Of a DNA stretch of 54,423 nucleotides, positions 4,176 to 53,931 are shown in pieces. The DNA is from a virus, in the IMG/VR virus record IMGVR_UViG_3300023174_000213, positions 1 to 54,423 of that record. One strand, written 5' to 3'. Position 1 is the stretch's first letter, and every line of letters starts with the position of its first letter. Position numbers and translations under genes: made by a program. The notes under the pieces are model-generated. The model was not told where the DNA came from and made no database searches. It worked only from the letters and a program-made list of their open reading frames with translations.

Positions 4176-5075
4176 ATGGCATTCAATGGAGTCCACCCGG
4201 CACTTCCCCTCGAGCCGACTCAGTTCGGACTCTTCGCTGCGGTTCCCCCAATCACCCACGCTTCGCGCGACTACGACGAGCGCTGGGAACGCGGATACGC
4301 ACAAATGCTTGAATCTTCTCCCTATGCACTTCGCAACTGGGATATCACTAGTAACACTAGCAACGTCATCCACGGCCCTGACTCGGGTGCCCGCAGGGCA
4401 GATCGATTTATTGCTCAAATTCGTCCCTTCTTTGTTGAAGTAGAAGACGACGCTTCTACTCTTGGTCTTGTTGCCGAAGATCGCTTTGCGCGTGTTCTTC
4501 GACAGGTCGAAGCTGCATCGCAGAAAGCCGTTGAAAAGGAGCTTTGGGACGGCGCTATTGCCCAGGGAGAAACCCTCGCCAATCCATACCTGACCAAGGC
4601 CTCGACCGTCACTACTCTCAACTCTGGGACTGCCCTCTCTGCCAAGCGTGCTCTTGCCCTGCTTGAGCAGTACATTGGCACCACATCGCCTTTCGGCGAG
4701 CAAGGGTTTATTCACATGACTCGCGATGTTGCAGCCATACTTAGCTCTAACAGCCAAATGCTGTTCCACGAAAAAGGAAAAGACCACCACCAGACAATGG
4801 GTGGAACTCCAGTCATTATTGGCTCAGGGTACTCCGGCGCTGGACCCGTTGGCGCAACAGGAGCTTCGGCTACCGATACCAACAAATGGATGTACGCCAC
4901 AGGCACACTCCGAGTTCACCTCGGGAAGCCTGAGGTCGTCAACGACACACTGGCCCAGGGCTATGCCGTGTCGGGAAATGCAAATGACATGAAGATCAAG
5001 GCTTACCGATCTGCATCGGTCTTCTTTGACACTTCGATCCACCTCGCTGTTCGAGTTGATCTGACAGCGGCCTAA
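4176..5075 (+). CDS. Head structural protein, possibly a second capsid-type protein
   Basis: 299 residues, ATG with TAAGGAAAG upstream. Proteins of this kind (FNGVHPALPLEPTQFGLFAA at the start, GEQGFIHMTRDVAA and GGTPVIIGSGYSG later) sit next to the capsid gene in several actinophages and are usually annotated only as structural or minor capsid proteins. The central helix-rich part followed by a beta-rich C-terminus, with GT and VK strands and ending AVRVDLTAA, resembles an HK97-fold layout, so a minor shell or vertex protein is plausible. It lies between the capsid and probable tube genes and is separated from capsid transcription by tandem hairpins. Exact function is unknown. Confidence 0.6.
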   Translation: MAFNGVHPALPLEPTQFGLFAAVPPITHASRDYDERWERGYAQMLESSPYALRNWDITSNTSNVIHGPDSGARRADRFIAQIRPFFVEVEDDASTLGLVAEDRFARVLRQVEAASQKAVEKELWDGAIAQGETLANPYLTKASTVTTLNSGTALSAKRALALLEQYIGTTSPFGEQGFIHMTRDVAAILSSNSQMLFHEKGKDHHQTMGGTPVIIGSGYSGAGPVGATGASATDTNKWMYATGTLRVHLGKPEVVNDTLAQGYAVSGNANDMKIKAYRSASVFFDTSIHLAVRVDLTAA

Positions 5076-42889: not shown

Positions 42890-42918
42890 TTGTGGCAGGC
42901 GAGTTTTCGTGTTACTAT
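42890..42918 (+). promoter_or_regulatory. Promoter for the primase-helicase operon
   Basis: TTGTGG (42890-42895), a 17-base spacer and TACTAT (42913-42918) preceded by TGT form the best sigma-70-like promoter in the window, with both -35 and extended -10. The leader to GTG 42985 is about 60 bases, with AGGA before the start. Confidence 0.7.
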
Positions 42919-45642: not shown

Positions 45643-46680
45643 ATGGTAAAGATTGCTATCTACACAATCGCCAAGAACGAGGCGAAGCACGTCGAGCGCT
45701 GGTACCAGTCGGCCAAAGATGCTGACTACCTGCTGATTTGCGACACTGGATCAGAAGACGATACCGTTCAGATTGCCCGTGATCTAGGGATTAGCGTAAT
45801 CAAAACTACCGTCAATCCGTGGAGATTTGACACTGCCCGGAATGCGGCCCTCGACGGAATTCCCGACGACATCGACTACTGTATCTCAATGGATATGGAT
45901 GAGATTATCAGTCCTAACTTTCGAGAAGAACTTGAGAAATGTCTTGAGGACGGTATCACGCTTCCACGTCCGAGCTTTATCTATAACGAAGATATGACTT
46001 TTTTAGCTCAGCGAATTCACGCACGTCACGGGTATCGATGGCGGTGGGCGATCCACGAGGCAATCTGCGTAGTCGACATCACTCAAGTTGAGCGGCCCGT
46101 CAATATCACAATGGAACATCACCCAGATGAAACTAAGTCTCGGGGGAATTACCTTCACCTGCTTGAGTTCTGGGCAAGAGAAGAACCAGAAGATGCTCGG
46201 TATGCGTACTACTATTCGCGGGAGCTGTTTTTCTACTCCCGTATCCGTGAAGCCAAAGAGGAATTTGTCCGGTATCTGAATCTAAAGAGTGCCGTGTGGA
46301 ATGTGGATCGGGCTCGGGCCTGTCGCTTCTTGGCTGAGATGTCTCCTGGCATCGAGGGTAAGCTCTGGCTCCAGCAGGCAACAGAGGAAATCCCCCACTA
46401 CCGAGAAGCGTGGGTCGAACTCGCACAGTGGCACTATGACCGTGAGCAATGGGCAGAAGGACTGGCTGCATCCGAGAAAGCCATCTCAATCGAGGATGGC
46501 GATCACATCTTGGCCTACCAGCGTGAAGCATTTGCGTGGGGAGAAAAAGCCTACGACTTGGCCGCTATCTGTGCACATCGTATGGGGCAGAATAATTTAG
46601 CACTCAAGTATGGAACCGTTGCTCACGAGCTCGCCCCAGACAACGAGCGTCTTAAGAATAATCTCGCCTTTTACGTTTAG
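45643..46680 (+). CDS. Glycosyltransferase family 2-like protein with TPR repeats
   Basis: 345 residues. The GT-A fold starts KIAIYTIAKNEAKHVERWY and has the DTGSEDDT turn and a DxD-type SMDMDEI near residue 83. From residue ~200 the sequence is helical and TPR-like (YREAWVELAQWHYDREQWAE, NLALKYGTVAHELAPDNERL). It lies 6 bp behind the primase gene, so it is probably in the same transcript. It may glycosylate a virion protein, DNA or cell envelope polymer. The acceptor cannot be inferred. Confidence 0.75.
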   Translation: MVKIAIYTIAKNEAKHVERWYQSAKDADYLLICDTGSEDDTVQIARDLGISVIKTTVNPWRFDTARNAALDGIPDDIDYCISMDMDEIISPNFREELEKCLEDGITLPRPSFIYNEDMTFLAQRIHARHGYRWRWAIHEAICVVDITQVERPVNITMEHHPDETKSRGNYLHLLEFWAREEPEDARYAYYYSRELFFYSRIREAKEEFVRYLNLKSAVWNVDRARACRFLAEMSPGIEGKLWLQQATEEIPHYREAWVELAQWHYDREQWAEGLAASEKAISIEDGDHILAYQREAFAWGEKAYDLAAICAHRMGQNNLALKYGTVAHELAPDNERLKNNLAFYV

Positions 46681-48757: not shown

Positions 48758-49319
48758 ATACATTGGACTCTCGGGATTTGCTCGATCGGGTAAAGACTCT
48801 GCTGCGGACTACATTTCCCTGAAGTACGGGCATCAGAAGGTCTCATTCTCAACTCCAATGAAGGAAGCACTAGTCCGGCTCAACCCACTAATTCGCATTG
48901 TTGATCCTATGGATAACGACACTATGGGTGGATCTACTCTGGCTGAGGCAGTTGACGTGTTTGGATGGGAAGACCTGAAGCAGGTCAGTCCCGACATTCG
49001 TGGCTACATCCAACGCATGGGAACCGAGGTTGGTCGGCAGATGTTTGGTCAAGATATTTGGGTCAATCGTACTTTTGATGAAATCGACGGGGAACGGTTG
49101 GTTGTCTTTGCTGATGTTCGGTTTCAGAATGAGGCGGAACGCGTCCGTAAAGCTGGCGGTCAGATTTGGCGTGTAGAGCGCGATGGAGTTGAAGCTCCAA
49201 ACAAGCACGTTTCTGAATTTGATCTTGAGGGATACCGATTTGACAAGATTCTCCACAACTATGGGACACTAGACGATCTCTATGATCAGATTGATTTTTT
49301 AATGGGACGATTAAAGTAG
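48750..49319 (+). CDS. Deoxynucleoside monophosphate kinase
   Basis: 189 residues. Walker A is GFARSGKDS at residues 8-16, followed by KVSFSTPMKEAL, RGYIQRMGTEVGRQMFGQ and VFADVRFQNEAERVRKAGG, the pattern of phage dNMP kinases of the T4 gene 1 type. These phosphorylate dNMPs, including modified ones, for genome synthesis. It is coupled on both sides (8-bp overlap upstream, TAGTG downstream). Confidence 0.85.
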   Translation: MIEYIGLSGFARSGKDSAADYISLKYGHQKVSFSTPMKEALVRLNPLIRIVDPMDNDTMGGSTLAEAVDVFGWEDLKQVSPDIRGYIQRMGTEVGRQMFGQDIWVNRTFDEIDGERLVVFADVRFQNEAERVRKAGGQIWRVERDGVEAPNKHVSEFDLEGYRFDKILHNYGTLDDLYDQIDFLMGRLK

Positions 49320-50134
49320 TGGAAAAGTTTACGAGCAAGAGCTACACGGTGGCGTGGGATGATCGACTTTACGTTACTAGAGACTTTGAAAAGCAAATGC
49401 GTGGTCTGGACTATTTAATTTGGGATCGATGCACTGAAGAGCAACGCTTTGTGAAATGGAAGCGTGCAGACGACGTTAGATACTTTGGACACGTCTATAA
49501 CTCGCTAGTTGACTTTTCGTACACAGAGCATGATGTATTTATATTTAGTGCTGGAGACATTCTGTGCGACGACTTCCCAGCATTCGTTCATAAGGTCGAA
49601 GACCACATGCTAAAGGATCAAGACACTTGGCTCATGTCACCTCACCTCCCTACTGACGGTGGTTCGGGCATGACCACGGCTATTGCTCCCTCTACTATGT
49701 ACCCTGAGATGTTGCTTACAACAAATATCAATGGACTCTACTGGGCTATGCGTCGAGAACTGGCCCTGATGCTCCTCGACTACTATGAGTGGATGCTGGA
49801 AAGGGGATTCATGGACTTCTCCAAGATGATATCTGGACACTGCCTAGACTGGGTTTACTCGGCTATGGTCTTGATGAACAACAAGAAGATCTACCGCGAT
49901 ATGAGTACAGAAATGTTTGAAGTAGAGGGTACAAGTTACGATACTAAGACAGCTCTCTGGGAGTGCAATATGGTTAAAGATCGATACATCGACTGGGAGA
50001 CTCTCCGAGGTAATACAGAAAAAGCGGTGCGGGCTATCTACCATACAATGAATACTAAGGCTCATAGTTTCCCCAAGGTATATATCGAACTTGAGACCGC
50101 CTACCCCCTCATGACCAAACGATTTGAGTACTAA
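49319..50134 (+). CDS. Glycosyltransferase-like protein (GT-A type)
   Basis: 271 residues, GTG in a TAGTG overlap. The sequence has FIFSAGDILCDDFPAFV, like the nucleotide-sugar Asp region of GT-A enzymes, and LTTNINGLYWAMRRELALML. A canonical DxD is not obvious. The context of a GH130-like protein, a nucleotidylyltransferase and further transferases supports a sugar-transfer role. The stop overlaps the next ATG by one base. Confidence 0.55.
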   Translation: MEKFTSKSYTVAWDDRLYVTRDFEKQMRGLDYLIWDRCTEEQRFVKWKRADDVRYFGHVYNSLVDFSYTEHDVFIFSAGDILCDDFPAFVHKVEDHMLKDQDTWLMSPHLPTDGGSGMTTAIAPSTMYPEMLLTTNINGLYWAMRRELALMLLDYYEWMLERGFMDFSKMISGHCLDWVYSAMVLMNNKKIYRDMSTEMFEVEGTSYDTKTALWECNMVKDRYIDWETLRGNTEKAVRAIYHTMNTKAHSFPKVYIELETAYPLMTKRFEY

Positions 50135-50559
50135 TGTCTGACATTACTGTCTACACAGGCGGAAGCTTTGATCTCCCGCACTCTGGGCACTTTCGACTTC
50201 TCAAGCGCTGTTCCGAGATTGGTCGCGTGGTGGTATCTCTCAACACCGACGAGTTCTACACGTCGTATCGTGGGTATGCGCCTGCTATGACATTCTCGGA
50301 GCGCCGTGAAATTTTAATGGCCTGTCGTTGGGTAGACGAGGTGATCCCTAACGTGGGCGGGGCTGACTCTAAGATTACGATTGATATTGTGAAGCCGGAC
50401 TACATCGTGATTGGCTCTGACTGGGCGAAGAAGGATTATTACGGTCAGATGGGCTTTGATCAGGACTGGCTTGATGATCGAGGAATTGGGTTGGTCTATA
50501 TTCCGTACACTCGTGGGATTAGTAGCTCAGACCTCAAGAAAAGGATTGCAGAACGCTAG
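50134..50559 (+). CDS. Cytidylyltransferase-like nucleotidyltransferase (TagD/RfaE type)
   Basis: 141 residues. The HxGH motif is in YTGGSFDLPHSGHFRLLKRC at the N-terminus, and the second signature is ISSSDLKKRI at the C-terminus, both diagnostic for the TagD/GCT and RfaE-like family. These make CDP-glycerol, ADP- or CDP-activated precursors from phosphorylated substrates. With neighbouring transferases it could supply an activated donor. The length is typical for the family. The substrate cannot be fixed from sequence. Confidence 0.85.
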   Translation: MSDITVYTGGSFDLPHSGHFRLLKRCSEIGRVVVSLNTDEFYTSYRGYAPAMTFSERREILMACRWVDEVIPNVGGADSKITIDIVKPDYIVIGSDWAKKDYYGQMGFDQDWLDDRGIGLVYIPYTRGISSSDLKKRIAER

Positions 50560-50565
50560 ACCTCG

Positions 50566-50574
50566 TGCTACTAT
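50566..50574 (+). promoter_or_regulatory. Extended -10 promoter of the tRNA-like RNA
   Basis: TGC-TACTAT; the -10 (50569-50574) is exactly six bases before 50581, the first base of the acceptor-like stem of the RNA. Confidence 0.6.
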
Positions 50575-50580
50575 ATGTAG

Positions 50581-50646
50581 ACGGACTGGTCCGCAAGGGT
50601 AGGCGCGGCTACAGTGAGAGCAGAGGTTCAAATCCTCGAAGTCCGT
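50581..50646 (+). ncRNA. tRNA-like small RNA without canonical anticodon arm
   Basis: A perfect 7-bp acceptor-like stem, ACGGACT (50581-50587) with AGTCCGT (50640-50646), and a T-arm GAGG-TTCAAAT-CCTC (50623-50637) are clear. A 4-bp CCGC/GCGG arm (50591-50594 with 50605-50608) resembles a D-arm with GG in its loop. Only about 13 bases remain for an anticodon arm, and no 5-bp stem with a 7-base loop can be drawn. The whole is 66 bases with no encoded CCA. It is framed by its own promoter and terminator. It could be a degenerate tRNA, a tRNA mimic, or the remains of an attP site derived from a host tRNA. Confidence 0.5.
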
Positions 50647-50648
50647 TA

Positions 50649-50678
50649 ACAAAGCCCTTGCTTCGGTAGGGGCTTTGT
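50649..50678 (+). terminator. TTCG-loop terminator of the tRNA-like RNA
   Basis: A 13-bp stem (50649-50661 with 50666-50678, two wobbles) closes on TTCG at 50662-50665, three bases after the tRNA-like RNA. The core is AAAGCCC/GGGCTTT. Confidence 0.8.
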
Positions 50679-50686
50679 GCTATGTT
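50678..50686 (+). promoter_or_regulatory. Extended -10 before the zinc-ribbon gene
   Basis: TGC-TATGTT, with the -10 (50681-50686) eight bases before ATG 50695, gives a leader of about two bases. It shares a base with the terminator stem. Confidence 0.5.
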
Positions 50687-50694
50687 AGAGGCAT

Positions 50695-50937
50695 ATGGGT
50701 ACAGCATTTCAACCAGGCGTCAATGATCTAGTCACTAGGTGCCCTGATCTTATTTCAGATTGGTCTCCGCGTAATAACTTTCTACCCTCTAGCGTTGCCG
50801 CTGGGAGTGGTCGTGCAGCGTGGTGGGTCTGCTCTACGTGCGGCCATGAGTGGATGGCGTCGATTTACAGCCGAGGACTGCAAGCTACCGCATGTCCTAT
50901 TTGTGCTCGTCGGGCTCGACGCACCCGAGTTAGTTGA
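50695..50937 (+). CDS. Zinc-ribbon protein (DUF4379-like)
   Basis: 80 residues. The pattern CPDLISDWSPRNNFLP followed by WWVCSTCGHEWMASIYSRG and CPIC matches the DUF4379 treble-clef repeat found in some endonuclease-associated and phage proteins; here only one repeat is present. CxxC and CxxC would bind one zinc. It is a single gene behind a near-leaderless promoter. Function unknown; nucleic-acid binding is plausible. Confidence 0.65.
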   Translation: MGTAFQPGVNDLVTRCPDLISDWSPRNNFLPSSVAAGSGRAAWWVCSTCGHEWMASIYSRGLQATACPICARRARRTRVS

Positions 50938-51129: not shown

Positions 51130-51800
51130 TCCCACACTACGACGTTCTTATTGCGACGCCTGGGAAGATGCTTCACGCTGAGTACGTCCAGAGTCTGGTC
51201 GATACCATCCGCGAACTTGAGAAGCGGGGATTGACTTACCGTTTCTTGAGCAAGCAGTCTTCGTTTATCCCCAGCGGTCGAGAATTTGTTGCCGTTGATC
51301 AGTACGAGAATGACTGGAAGACGCGTGAAGTTGGTTCTGGTCAGTATACCTATGGCAAGATTTTCTGGATCGACTCAGACATCATCTGGGAGTCGTGGCA
51401 GTTTATGCATATCTTGGACAGTGACGAAGACGTAATTTCTGGACTTTACGCCAGCACCCCGGAGGGGATTGTTGCGTGTAGTGTGTTCCACCCAGAGCTT
51501 GAGGGCGAGTTTCCGGTCACGACACATGAGTCTAACTTCTTCATGCAGAGTGACCCTGTCGAAGTGTTTGGTGTTGGGTTCGGCTTTGTGGCAATGAAGC
51601 AGGGTGTGTTCGAGAAGTGTGATCGACCGTGGTTCAAGATCGAGCACATCAAATGGCCTGAGATTGACTTTATGACAAATGTAGGAGAAGATTACTCGTG
51701 GTGCATGAACGCACGGCGCAATGGCTTCAAGATTATGCTGGACCCGACAATTAGGGTCAAGCACGGTAAAGAGACATTTTACGAACTTCCACCAGCGTAG
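51126..51800 (+). CDS. Glycosyltransferase family 2-like protein
   Basis: 224 residues, GTG in a GTGA overlap. A GT-A fold is indicated by YDVLIATPGKMLHAEYVQSL, the DxD-like IFWIDSDIIW near residue 83, ISGLYASTPEG, and a second metal/acceptor region NVGEDYSWCMNARRNGF. The C-terminal IRVKHGKE is also typical. It is probably translated from the leaderless message starting at the FmdB-like gene. The acceptor is unknown. Confidence 0.75.
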   Translation: MIPHYDVLIATPGKMLHAEYVQSLVDTIRELEKRGLTYRFLSKQSSFIPSGREFVAVDQYENDWKTREVGSGQYTYGKIFWIDSDIIWESWQFMHILDSDEDVISGLYASTPEGIVACSVFHPELEGEFPVTTHESNFFMQSDPVEVFGVGFGFVAMKQGVFEKCDRPWFKIEHIKWPEIDFMTNVGEDYSWCMNARRNGFKIMLDPTIRVKHGKETFYELPPA

Positions 51801-51810
51801 ACAGGGACAC

Positions 51811-52269
51811 ATGAGTACCAAACGAAAACTGATCATCTGCCGAGGCATCCCCGCAAGCGGGAAGACGACATGGGCGCTTGAGTGGCTCTCGCAAGATCCG
51901 TCTAATCGAGCTCGGGTCAATCGTGATGACATTCGCTGGATGGTATTCAACTCAGGGCACGGAGATAACGTCGACGAAAGTATCATCACCCGGATCCACA
52001 ACGCGGCCCTTCAGCAGTTGATGTATGAGGGACGTGACATCGTGGTTGACAATACCAACCTCTACAAGTCCAATGTCTCGTACCTCAAGAAGATTGCTCG
52101 AGAGAACGGATACATTGTTGAGTTCCGTGACTTCATCATTACTTATGAGGAAGCCCTCCAGCGGGATCGAGGCCGCGCCCGTCCGGTGGGCGATGACATT
52201 GTGTTTTCATTCTTCCAGCGCTACACCATTGATGGTGCTGGTCACTTACCTAAGCCACCGCTCAAGTGA
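51811..52269 (+). CDS. P-loop polynucleotide kinase-like protein
   Basis: 152 residues from ATG 51811; the frame is open upstream to 51721, but that would overlap the previous gene by 80 bases. Walker A is GIPASGKTT, followed by RVNRDDIRWMVF, VVDNTNLYKSNV and the lid RDRGRARPVG, the pattern of T4 Pnk-type 5' kinases. It lacks the phosphatase domain. Targets could be DNA or RNA ends, or modified bases in DNA. It is coupled to the DUF1232 gene. Confidence 0.85.
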   Translation: MSTKRKLIICRGIPASGKTTWALEWLSQDPSNRARVNRDDIRWMVFNSGHGDNVDESIITRIHNAALQQLMYEGRDIVVDNTNLYKSNVSYLKKIARENGYIVEFRDFIITYEEALQRDRGRARPVGDDIVFSFFQRYTIDGAGHLPKPPLK

Positions 52270-53859: not shown

Positions 53860-53931
53860 GCCCTAATAGCTCAAAGGCAGAGCGCCGCTCTTGTAAAGCG
53901 GAGGTTGTGATCTCGGAATTCACTTGGGGCT
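53860..53931 (+). tRNA. tRNA-Thr (anticodon TGT)
   Basis: Acceptor stem GCCCTAA/TTGGGGC (53860-53866 with 53924-53930, one wobble), D-arm GCTC/GAGC with GG in the loop, and a perfect anticodon stem CCGCT/AGCGG around CTTGTAA, anticodon TGT at 53892-53894. The T-arm is odd: four pairs GTGA/TCAC around a loop containing CTCGGAA instead of TTCGAAT. No CCA is encoded. It reads ACA codons. Confidence 0.85.

Follow-up and report, generated by a model that had tools for sequence, protein, structure and literature searches.

A constrained tRNA-like RNA element without an anticodon arm, predicted to be a non-decoding tRNA mimic, in a virus with actinophage traits

The window analyzed here is a whole viral record of 54,423 bases, to which all positions refer unless another record is named. 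It displays actinophage traits in its WhiB-like regulator and its primase, the best matches of the latter being Microbacterium phages and the Actinomycetia phage DSL-LC01. Directly downstream of an adenylyltransferase gene lies a 66-nt element that can be drawn as a small tRNA, preceded by an extended -10 motif and followed by a hairpin and by the gene for a zinc finger protein (Table 1). A second viral record, IMG/VR 3300049009_000425 (hereafter L002), shares this gene order and has a homologue of the element at positions 4342-4407, and in both viruses the element starts 21 nt past the adenylyltransferase stop codon. As the adenylyltransferase cassette occurs without the element in four further loci (L003-L006), the element is not a component of that cassette. 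A T4 Pnkp-like kinase is encoded 1.1 kb from the element, and no RNA ligase was found among the window proteins scanned; this kinase is context, not evidence. The window also holds a tRNA-Thr (TGT) at 53860-53931, which scores 50 bits with Rfam, was missed by ARAGORN and has an altered T-arm (GTGAT-CTCGGAA-TTCAC, with both T54 and A58 changed).

Table 1 Features at and around the tRNA-like element (window coordinates; L002 is the second virus)
Feature	Position	Strand	Remarks
CTP_transf_like adenylyltransferase gene, directly upstream of the element	50134..50559	+	Pfam PF01467, 60 bits; L002 protein 91% identical, same order
Extended -10, TG-C-TACTAT	50566..50574	+	TG-C-TACTCT in L002, same distance
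tRNA-like RNA element, 66 nt	50581..50646	+	7-bp acceptor 50581-50587/50640-50646
D-like hairpin GTCC-GCAA-GGGT, GNRA tetraloop	50589..50600	+	AGTC-GAAA-GACT in L002; 2 double compensatory pairs, 1 single change
Junction strand AGGCGCG	50601..50607	+	Invariant between window and L002; contains GG 50602-50603
Anticodon-position hairpin GCT(A)-CAGTGA-(G)AGC	50608..50621	+	ACTC-CAGTGA-GAGT in L002; G-C to A-T compensatory pair
T-arm GAGG (50623-50626)-TTCAAAT-CCTC (50634-50637)	50623..50637	+	Identical in L002
13-bp TTCG hairpin, possible terminator	50649..50678	+	Weak T tail (TTTG); absent from L002
Second extended -10, TGCTATGTT	50678..50686	+	8 nt before ATG of next gene; L002 has TGCTATCTT at the corresponding place
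Next gene, treble-clef zinc finger protein (DUF4379)	50695..50937	+	Domain match
T4 Pnkp-like 5' polynucleotide kinase	51721..52269	+	PHROG 505; PDB 1ly1/1ltq

The arms of the element bear out much of what a preliminary description had read from the window sequence. Specifically, the acceptor-like strands ACGGACT and AGTCCGT form seven of seven Watson-Crick pairs, so that the 66-base element with a perfect 7-bp acceptor-like stem stands as described, and G50580-T50647 is a potential wobble pair that would extend this stem. The T-arm had been called canonical, which holds for its loop and not for its stem: the latter has four pairs rather than five (the fifth would be A.G), and two unpaired bases separate the arm from the acceptor strand. 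In both viruses, all seven acceptor pairs, all four T-stem pairs and a TTCRANY loop are present. The claim that there is no room for a normal anticodon arm is likewise upheld, as only 15 nt lie between the D region and the T-arm, without a U at the U33 position, and no U33-bearing loop is possible; the hairpin at this position, which has no U33 in its loop CAGTGA, is the weakest of the arms. When a TTCRANY T-arm is sought together with a 7-bp acceptor, exactly one site in the window qualifies, namely the element, against a chance expectation of 0.02 such structures per window (150 dinucleotide shuffles). Across 0.97 Mb (the window plus the fetched loci), this search picks up, besides the element, only the L002 homologue and a single tRNA and mini-tmRNA. 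The tRNA-like element in the window is real, and the original observation is confirmed.

The comparison with L002 indicates that the element is constrained. The two copies are identical at 54 of 66 positions and differ at 12, and the flank downstream of them diverges at once. In the adenylyltransferase gene, 29 of 56 fourfold-degenerate sites differ (Fisher p=1e-4 against the element), as do 75 of 108 in a nearby glycosyltransferase gene; pooled, this amounts to 104/164 sites (63%) versus 12/66 (Fisher p=3e-10). Because it differs so much less than the fourfold-degenerate sites of two nearby genes, the element is, as far as this comparison of two homologous sequences reaches, under purifying selection. 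Searches for further homologues returned none: three pattern scans of viral contigs yielded L002, chance matches and ordinary tRNAs, and a gapped-pattern scan likewise gave only L002, chance matches and ordinary tRNAs. When neighboring proteins served as queries, the glycosyltransferase at 45643 led to 13 loci, none with another copy of the element; the gene at 49319 alone led to no loci, and its alignment only to L002, hence to no new copy. By blastn, neither phages nor plasmids yielded a relative of the element, and L082, a relative by one protein (98%), ends before the element region.

The same comparison provides the evidence for the fold. The minimum free energy structure of L002, computed without the window, is a cloverleaf with an 8-bp acceptor, the hairpins AGTC-GAAA-GACT and ACTC-CAGTGA-GAGT, and the T-arm. 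With this structure fixed, 18 of 20 pairs are kept in the window, three of them via double compensatory change (joint p=4e-4 for both values being reached when substitutions equal in number and type are placed at random). When substitution positions are held fixed, compensation is not significant (p=0.08), and the signal therefore comes from where the substitutions lie, namely on partner positions; if the pairing is shifted by 1-3 columns, all double changes vanish. The canonical D-arm pairing (10-12/22-24) was rejected, as it breaks one pair in the window and retains only one of the three double changes, and the D-like hairpin is better read as a GNRA-capped stem. L002 is also able to form a longer D-arm. 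The window's own minimum free energy structure is a different fold, which at -20.7 versus -17.7 kcal/mol is 3.0 kcal/mol better than the cloverleaf, and the RNAalifold consensus of the pair includes the acceptor, D-like and T arms but leaves out the anticodon-position hairpin. A 70-nt window stretch alone folds no better than shuffles (z -0.94); folding energy therefore gives no support, whereas the comparison with L002 does, and because of L002 the case for the element is stronger than from the window alone.

Transcription signals surrounding the element are conserved in part. The extended -10, TGCTACTAT in the window and TGCTACTCT in L002, lies six bases ahead of the first acceptor base (A50581 in the window), and the spacing described from the window is kept in L002; a predicted promoter at the correct distance for a stand-alone RNA gene is thus present in two viruses. 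The 13-bp TTCG hairpin proposed as its terminator does exist, but its tail is only TTTG, so that it would be a weak-tailed terminator at best, and since the hairpin is missing in L002, the unit of promoter, RNA and terminator is not conserved as such. As such, the initial reading retains its tRNA-like fold, its missing anticodon arm and its extended -10, now seen to be conserved, and loses the terminator as a conserved part. The following gene has a similar motif of its own a few bases before its ATG in both viruses, which is consistent with leaderless genes. Further intergenic motifs of the form TG(C/T)TA(C/T)NNT, at 42910-42918 and 50678-50686 of the window, precede genes, and their recurrence suggests a common phage promoter type.

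The element shares the 7-bp acceptor and the TTCAAAT T-loop with bacterial and phage tRNAs (RF00005), and its TAGGCGC resembles the 3' D-arm of some phage tRNAs. In contrast to tRNAs, it measures only 66 nt and has a 4-bp T-stem, a GNRA-capped D hairpin and no U33 anticodon arm. RF00005 does not match the element or its L002 homologue at E<=10 (cut-off 29 bits), its only match in the window being the site at 53860-53931, and ARAGORN calls no tRNA at the element; with the U33 anticodon arm missing as well, identity as a tRNA was rejected. Since the loop at the anticodon position is CAGTGA, without U33, decoding by the RNA is excluded in practice. A degraded tRNA had been among the first proposals, and the locus could be a decaying, functionless tRNA gene, perhaps tRNA-Cys-like, that has lost about 7 nt of its anticodon and variable region. 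The D region of L002, GTCGAAAGACTAGGCGC, resembles the D-arm of a tRNA-Cys in L107 at 15 of 17 positions (0/200 shuffles), a likeness qualified by the TAGGCGC in the pattern with which this tRNA was found; taken as a whole, the similarity to phage tRNAs also exceeds the shuffle mean, and the window phage also carries a tRNA-Thr with an altered T-arm. Purifying selection and compensatory changes nevertheless disfavor decay, as do the same shortened form and retained promoter in two viruses and the missing RF00005 match, while the D region of the window alone is not tRNA-like above shuffles. Decay is, on balance, a distinctly unlikely explanation.

Two further readings of the locus are very improbable. 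The first is a tRNA fragment serving as phage attachment site (attP), which would fit the presence of a T-arm and a 3' acceptor strand, by general knowledge the usual attP part of tRNA genes (cf. PMC9897764). Against it, the element has a 5' acceptor strand as well, perfectly paired, and the window proteins scanned (a subset of all open reading frames) include no integrase; no plasmid matched, and a genome scan for the core returned one unrelated chance match. These scans give no sign that the 3' half corresponds to a host tRNA attB. The second, equally remote, is a conserved short coding region. A frame starting with GTG runs open through the element in the window and in L002, but of 11 codons that changed, 8 encode a different residue (3 synonymous, 8 non-synonymous), changes are spread 4/6/6 over the codon positions and the C-termini differ, and the frame was rejected by this codon-position pattern.

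Among known RNAs, mascRNA is the nearest structural analogue. Like the element, the mascRNA-menRNA family (RF01684) comprises small tRNA mimics with an acceptor and a T-arm, a reduced D-arm and no anticodon loop. The solved mascRNA structure sets a precedent for an anticodon-less tRNA mimic in which two guanines contact the T-loop to form an elbow; its D-arm is reduced, it has no conserved anticodon loop, it matures by RNase P and RNase Z cleavage, and it receives CCA without being aminoacylated (PMC11693755). For the element, the corresponding cloverleaf is supported, and the invariant GG (50602-50603) is present and could dock in the same way. mascRNA differs in its origin, since RNase P releases it from a vertebrate nuclear lncRNA, and in its longer anticodon-position stem, and family membership was rejected, with 12.4 bits over the full length for the window element and 10.1 bits over the T-arm only for L002 (cut-off 42.5). 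The tRNA-like domain of tmRNA (RF00023) likewise lacks an anticodon and joins an acceptor and a T-arm to a D region of non-standard form; unlike tmRNA, the element has no GGTTTCGA D-loop and no mRNA part, and RF00023 matches neither the window nor L002, whereas the positive control L057 matches at 51 bits. This control, at positions 1643-1725 of a viral contig, is itself an 83-nt mini-tmRNA above the cut-off: its tRNA-like domain is complete and carries CCA, a short hairpin closes it, and there is no reading frame for a tag. SpF41, a Streptococcus sRNA (RF02435), resembles the window element in having a tRNA-like domain followed by a hairpin; it was rejected at 19 bits over the full model (permissive filters, E=2, cut-off 52 bits), a match not reproduced at E<=10 in another search, and L002, which lacks the terminator, gave none. 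Phage T4, which belongs to a different phage group, also has two small stable RNAs, C and D, that are linked to tRNAs, have no known function and may be loosely comparable to the element.

A covariance-model search of six actinophage genomes returned mostly true tRNAs and one unannotated site that ARAGORN does not call, at 114085-114142 of Streptomyces phage Warpy (MF358541; L137 1501-1558). This 58-nt element has an acceptor GGCCGG/CCGGCC, a hairpin CTAG-6-CTAG and a T-arm, again without an anticodon arm. It is intergenic in the annotated copies fetched, matches in 86 Streptomyces phage records almost without variation, and is 95% identical among 13 Streptomyces phages whose flanking genes are 64% identical. 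Its score with the Rfam mascRNA model is 21.9 bits (E=0.018), below the cut-off, and its 14 bits with the window element do not establish homology; with helices that are almost invariant, it offers no covariation signal to read. A sigma-70-like promoter, TTGAAT-17-TATACT, spans its 5' half, which may be conserved for that reason instead. The Streptomyces phage element is possibly analogous to the one in the window.

In the window and L002, the element and its predicted promoter are kept in two divergent phages, change far more slowly than nearby fourfold-degenerate sites and remain compatible with a cloverleaf through compensation, and a functional, conserved tRNA-like RNA is very probable. 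By analogy with mascRNA (PMC11693755), the element is read as encoding a phage non-decoding tRNA mimic of about 66 nt, a predicted function to which we give an even chance. Transcription would start at or next to the first acceptor base, the junction GG would dock on the T-loop as the D-loop GG of a tRNA does, creating a tRNA-like elbow as in mascRNA, and RNase Z would trim the 3' end; as no CCA is encoded, CCA may then be added. Because the RNA cannot decode, its likely use would be to occupy, during infection, a host protein that recognizes the tRNA top half (acceptor, T-arm and elbow), for example a tRNA 3'-end-modifying toxin or processing enzyme. The features that the element retains, namely acceptor stem, T-arm and conserved GG, are those read by such proteins. 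Action in trans as a mimic or decoy is a tentative proposal, its chances somewhat below even, and its target we can only infer. Two targets proposed at the outset are unlikely: a decoy for anticodon nucleases would lack the cut site, as no anticodon loop with U33 can form, and EF-Tu binds aminoacylated tRNA, while charging of this RNA is improbable. Interference with host tRNA metabolism, another of the initial proposals, is still a candidate role. As a target, a factor that works on the acceptor end has more plausibility than an anticodon nuclease. Phage tRNAs that evade tRNA-cleaving defenses are thought to counter host defenses targeting tRNAs (PMC10264068, PMC11555353); those tRNAs decode and replace the cut ones, which the element RNA cannot do.

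The strongest rival to this mimic is a role in cis, in which the tRNA-like fold marks the 3' end of the adenylyltransferase mRNA, where cleavage by RNase P or RNase Z, or a block to 3' exonucleases, would separate the operon from the next gene. It owes this rank to the short distance from a stop codon at which the element starts in the window, in L002 and, within a few bases, also in the Streptomyces phages. mascRNA does the same for MALAT1, and the next gene has an extended -10 of its own. A processing signal would, however, have no need of the conserved extended -10, correctly spaced to the first acceptor base, and we regard the cis role as possible, though clearly less probable than the mimic.

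Taken together, the findings describe a constrained tRNA-like RNA of a kind already known, that of tRNA mimics, with a predicted function. A broader proposal is rather improbable: that anticodon-less tRNA mimics form an unannotated class in actinobacterial phages (the 66-nt form in two freshwater phages and possibly the 58-nt form in 86 Streptomyces phage records), acting as decoys for host proteins that bind the tRNA top half, and possibly as RNA anti-defense factors. Since tRNA finders drop RNAs without an anticodon, phage genomes may hold conserved tRNA mimics that have gone unannotated. If the RNA acts in trans, it would represent interference with host tRNA biology by RNA only, and as Streptomyces phages with a similar element grow in the laboratory, the role of non-decoding phage tRNA-like RNAs is directly testable.
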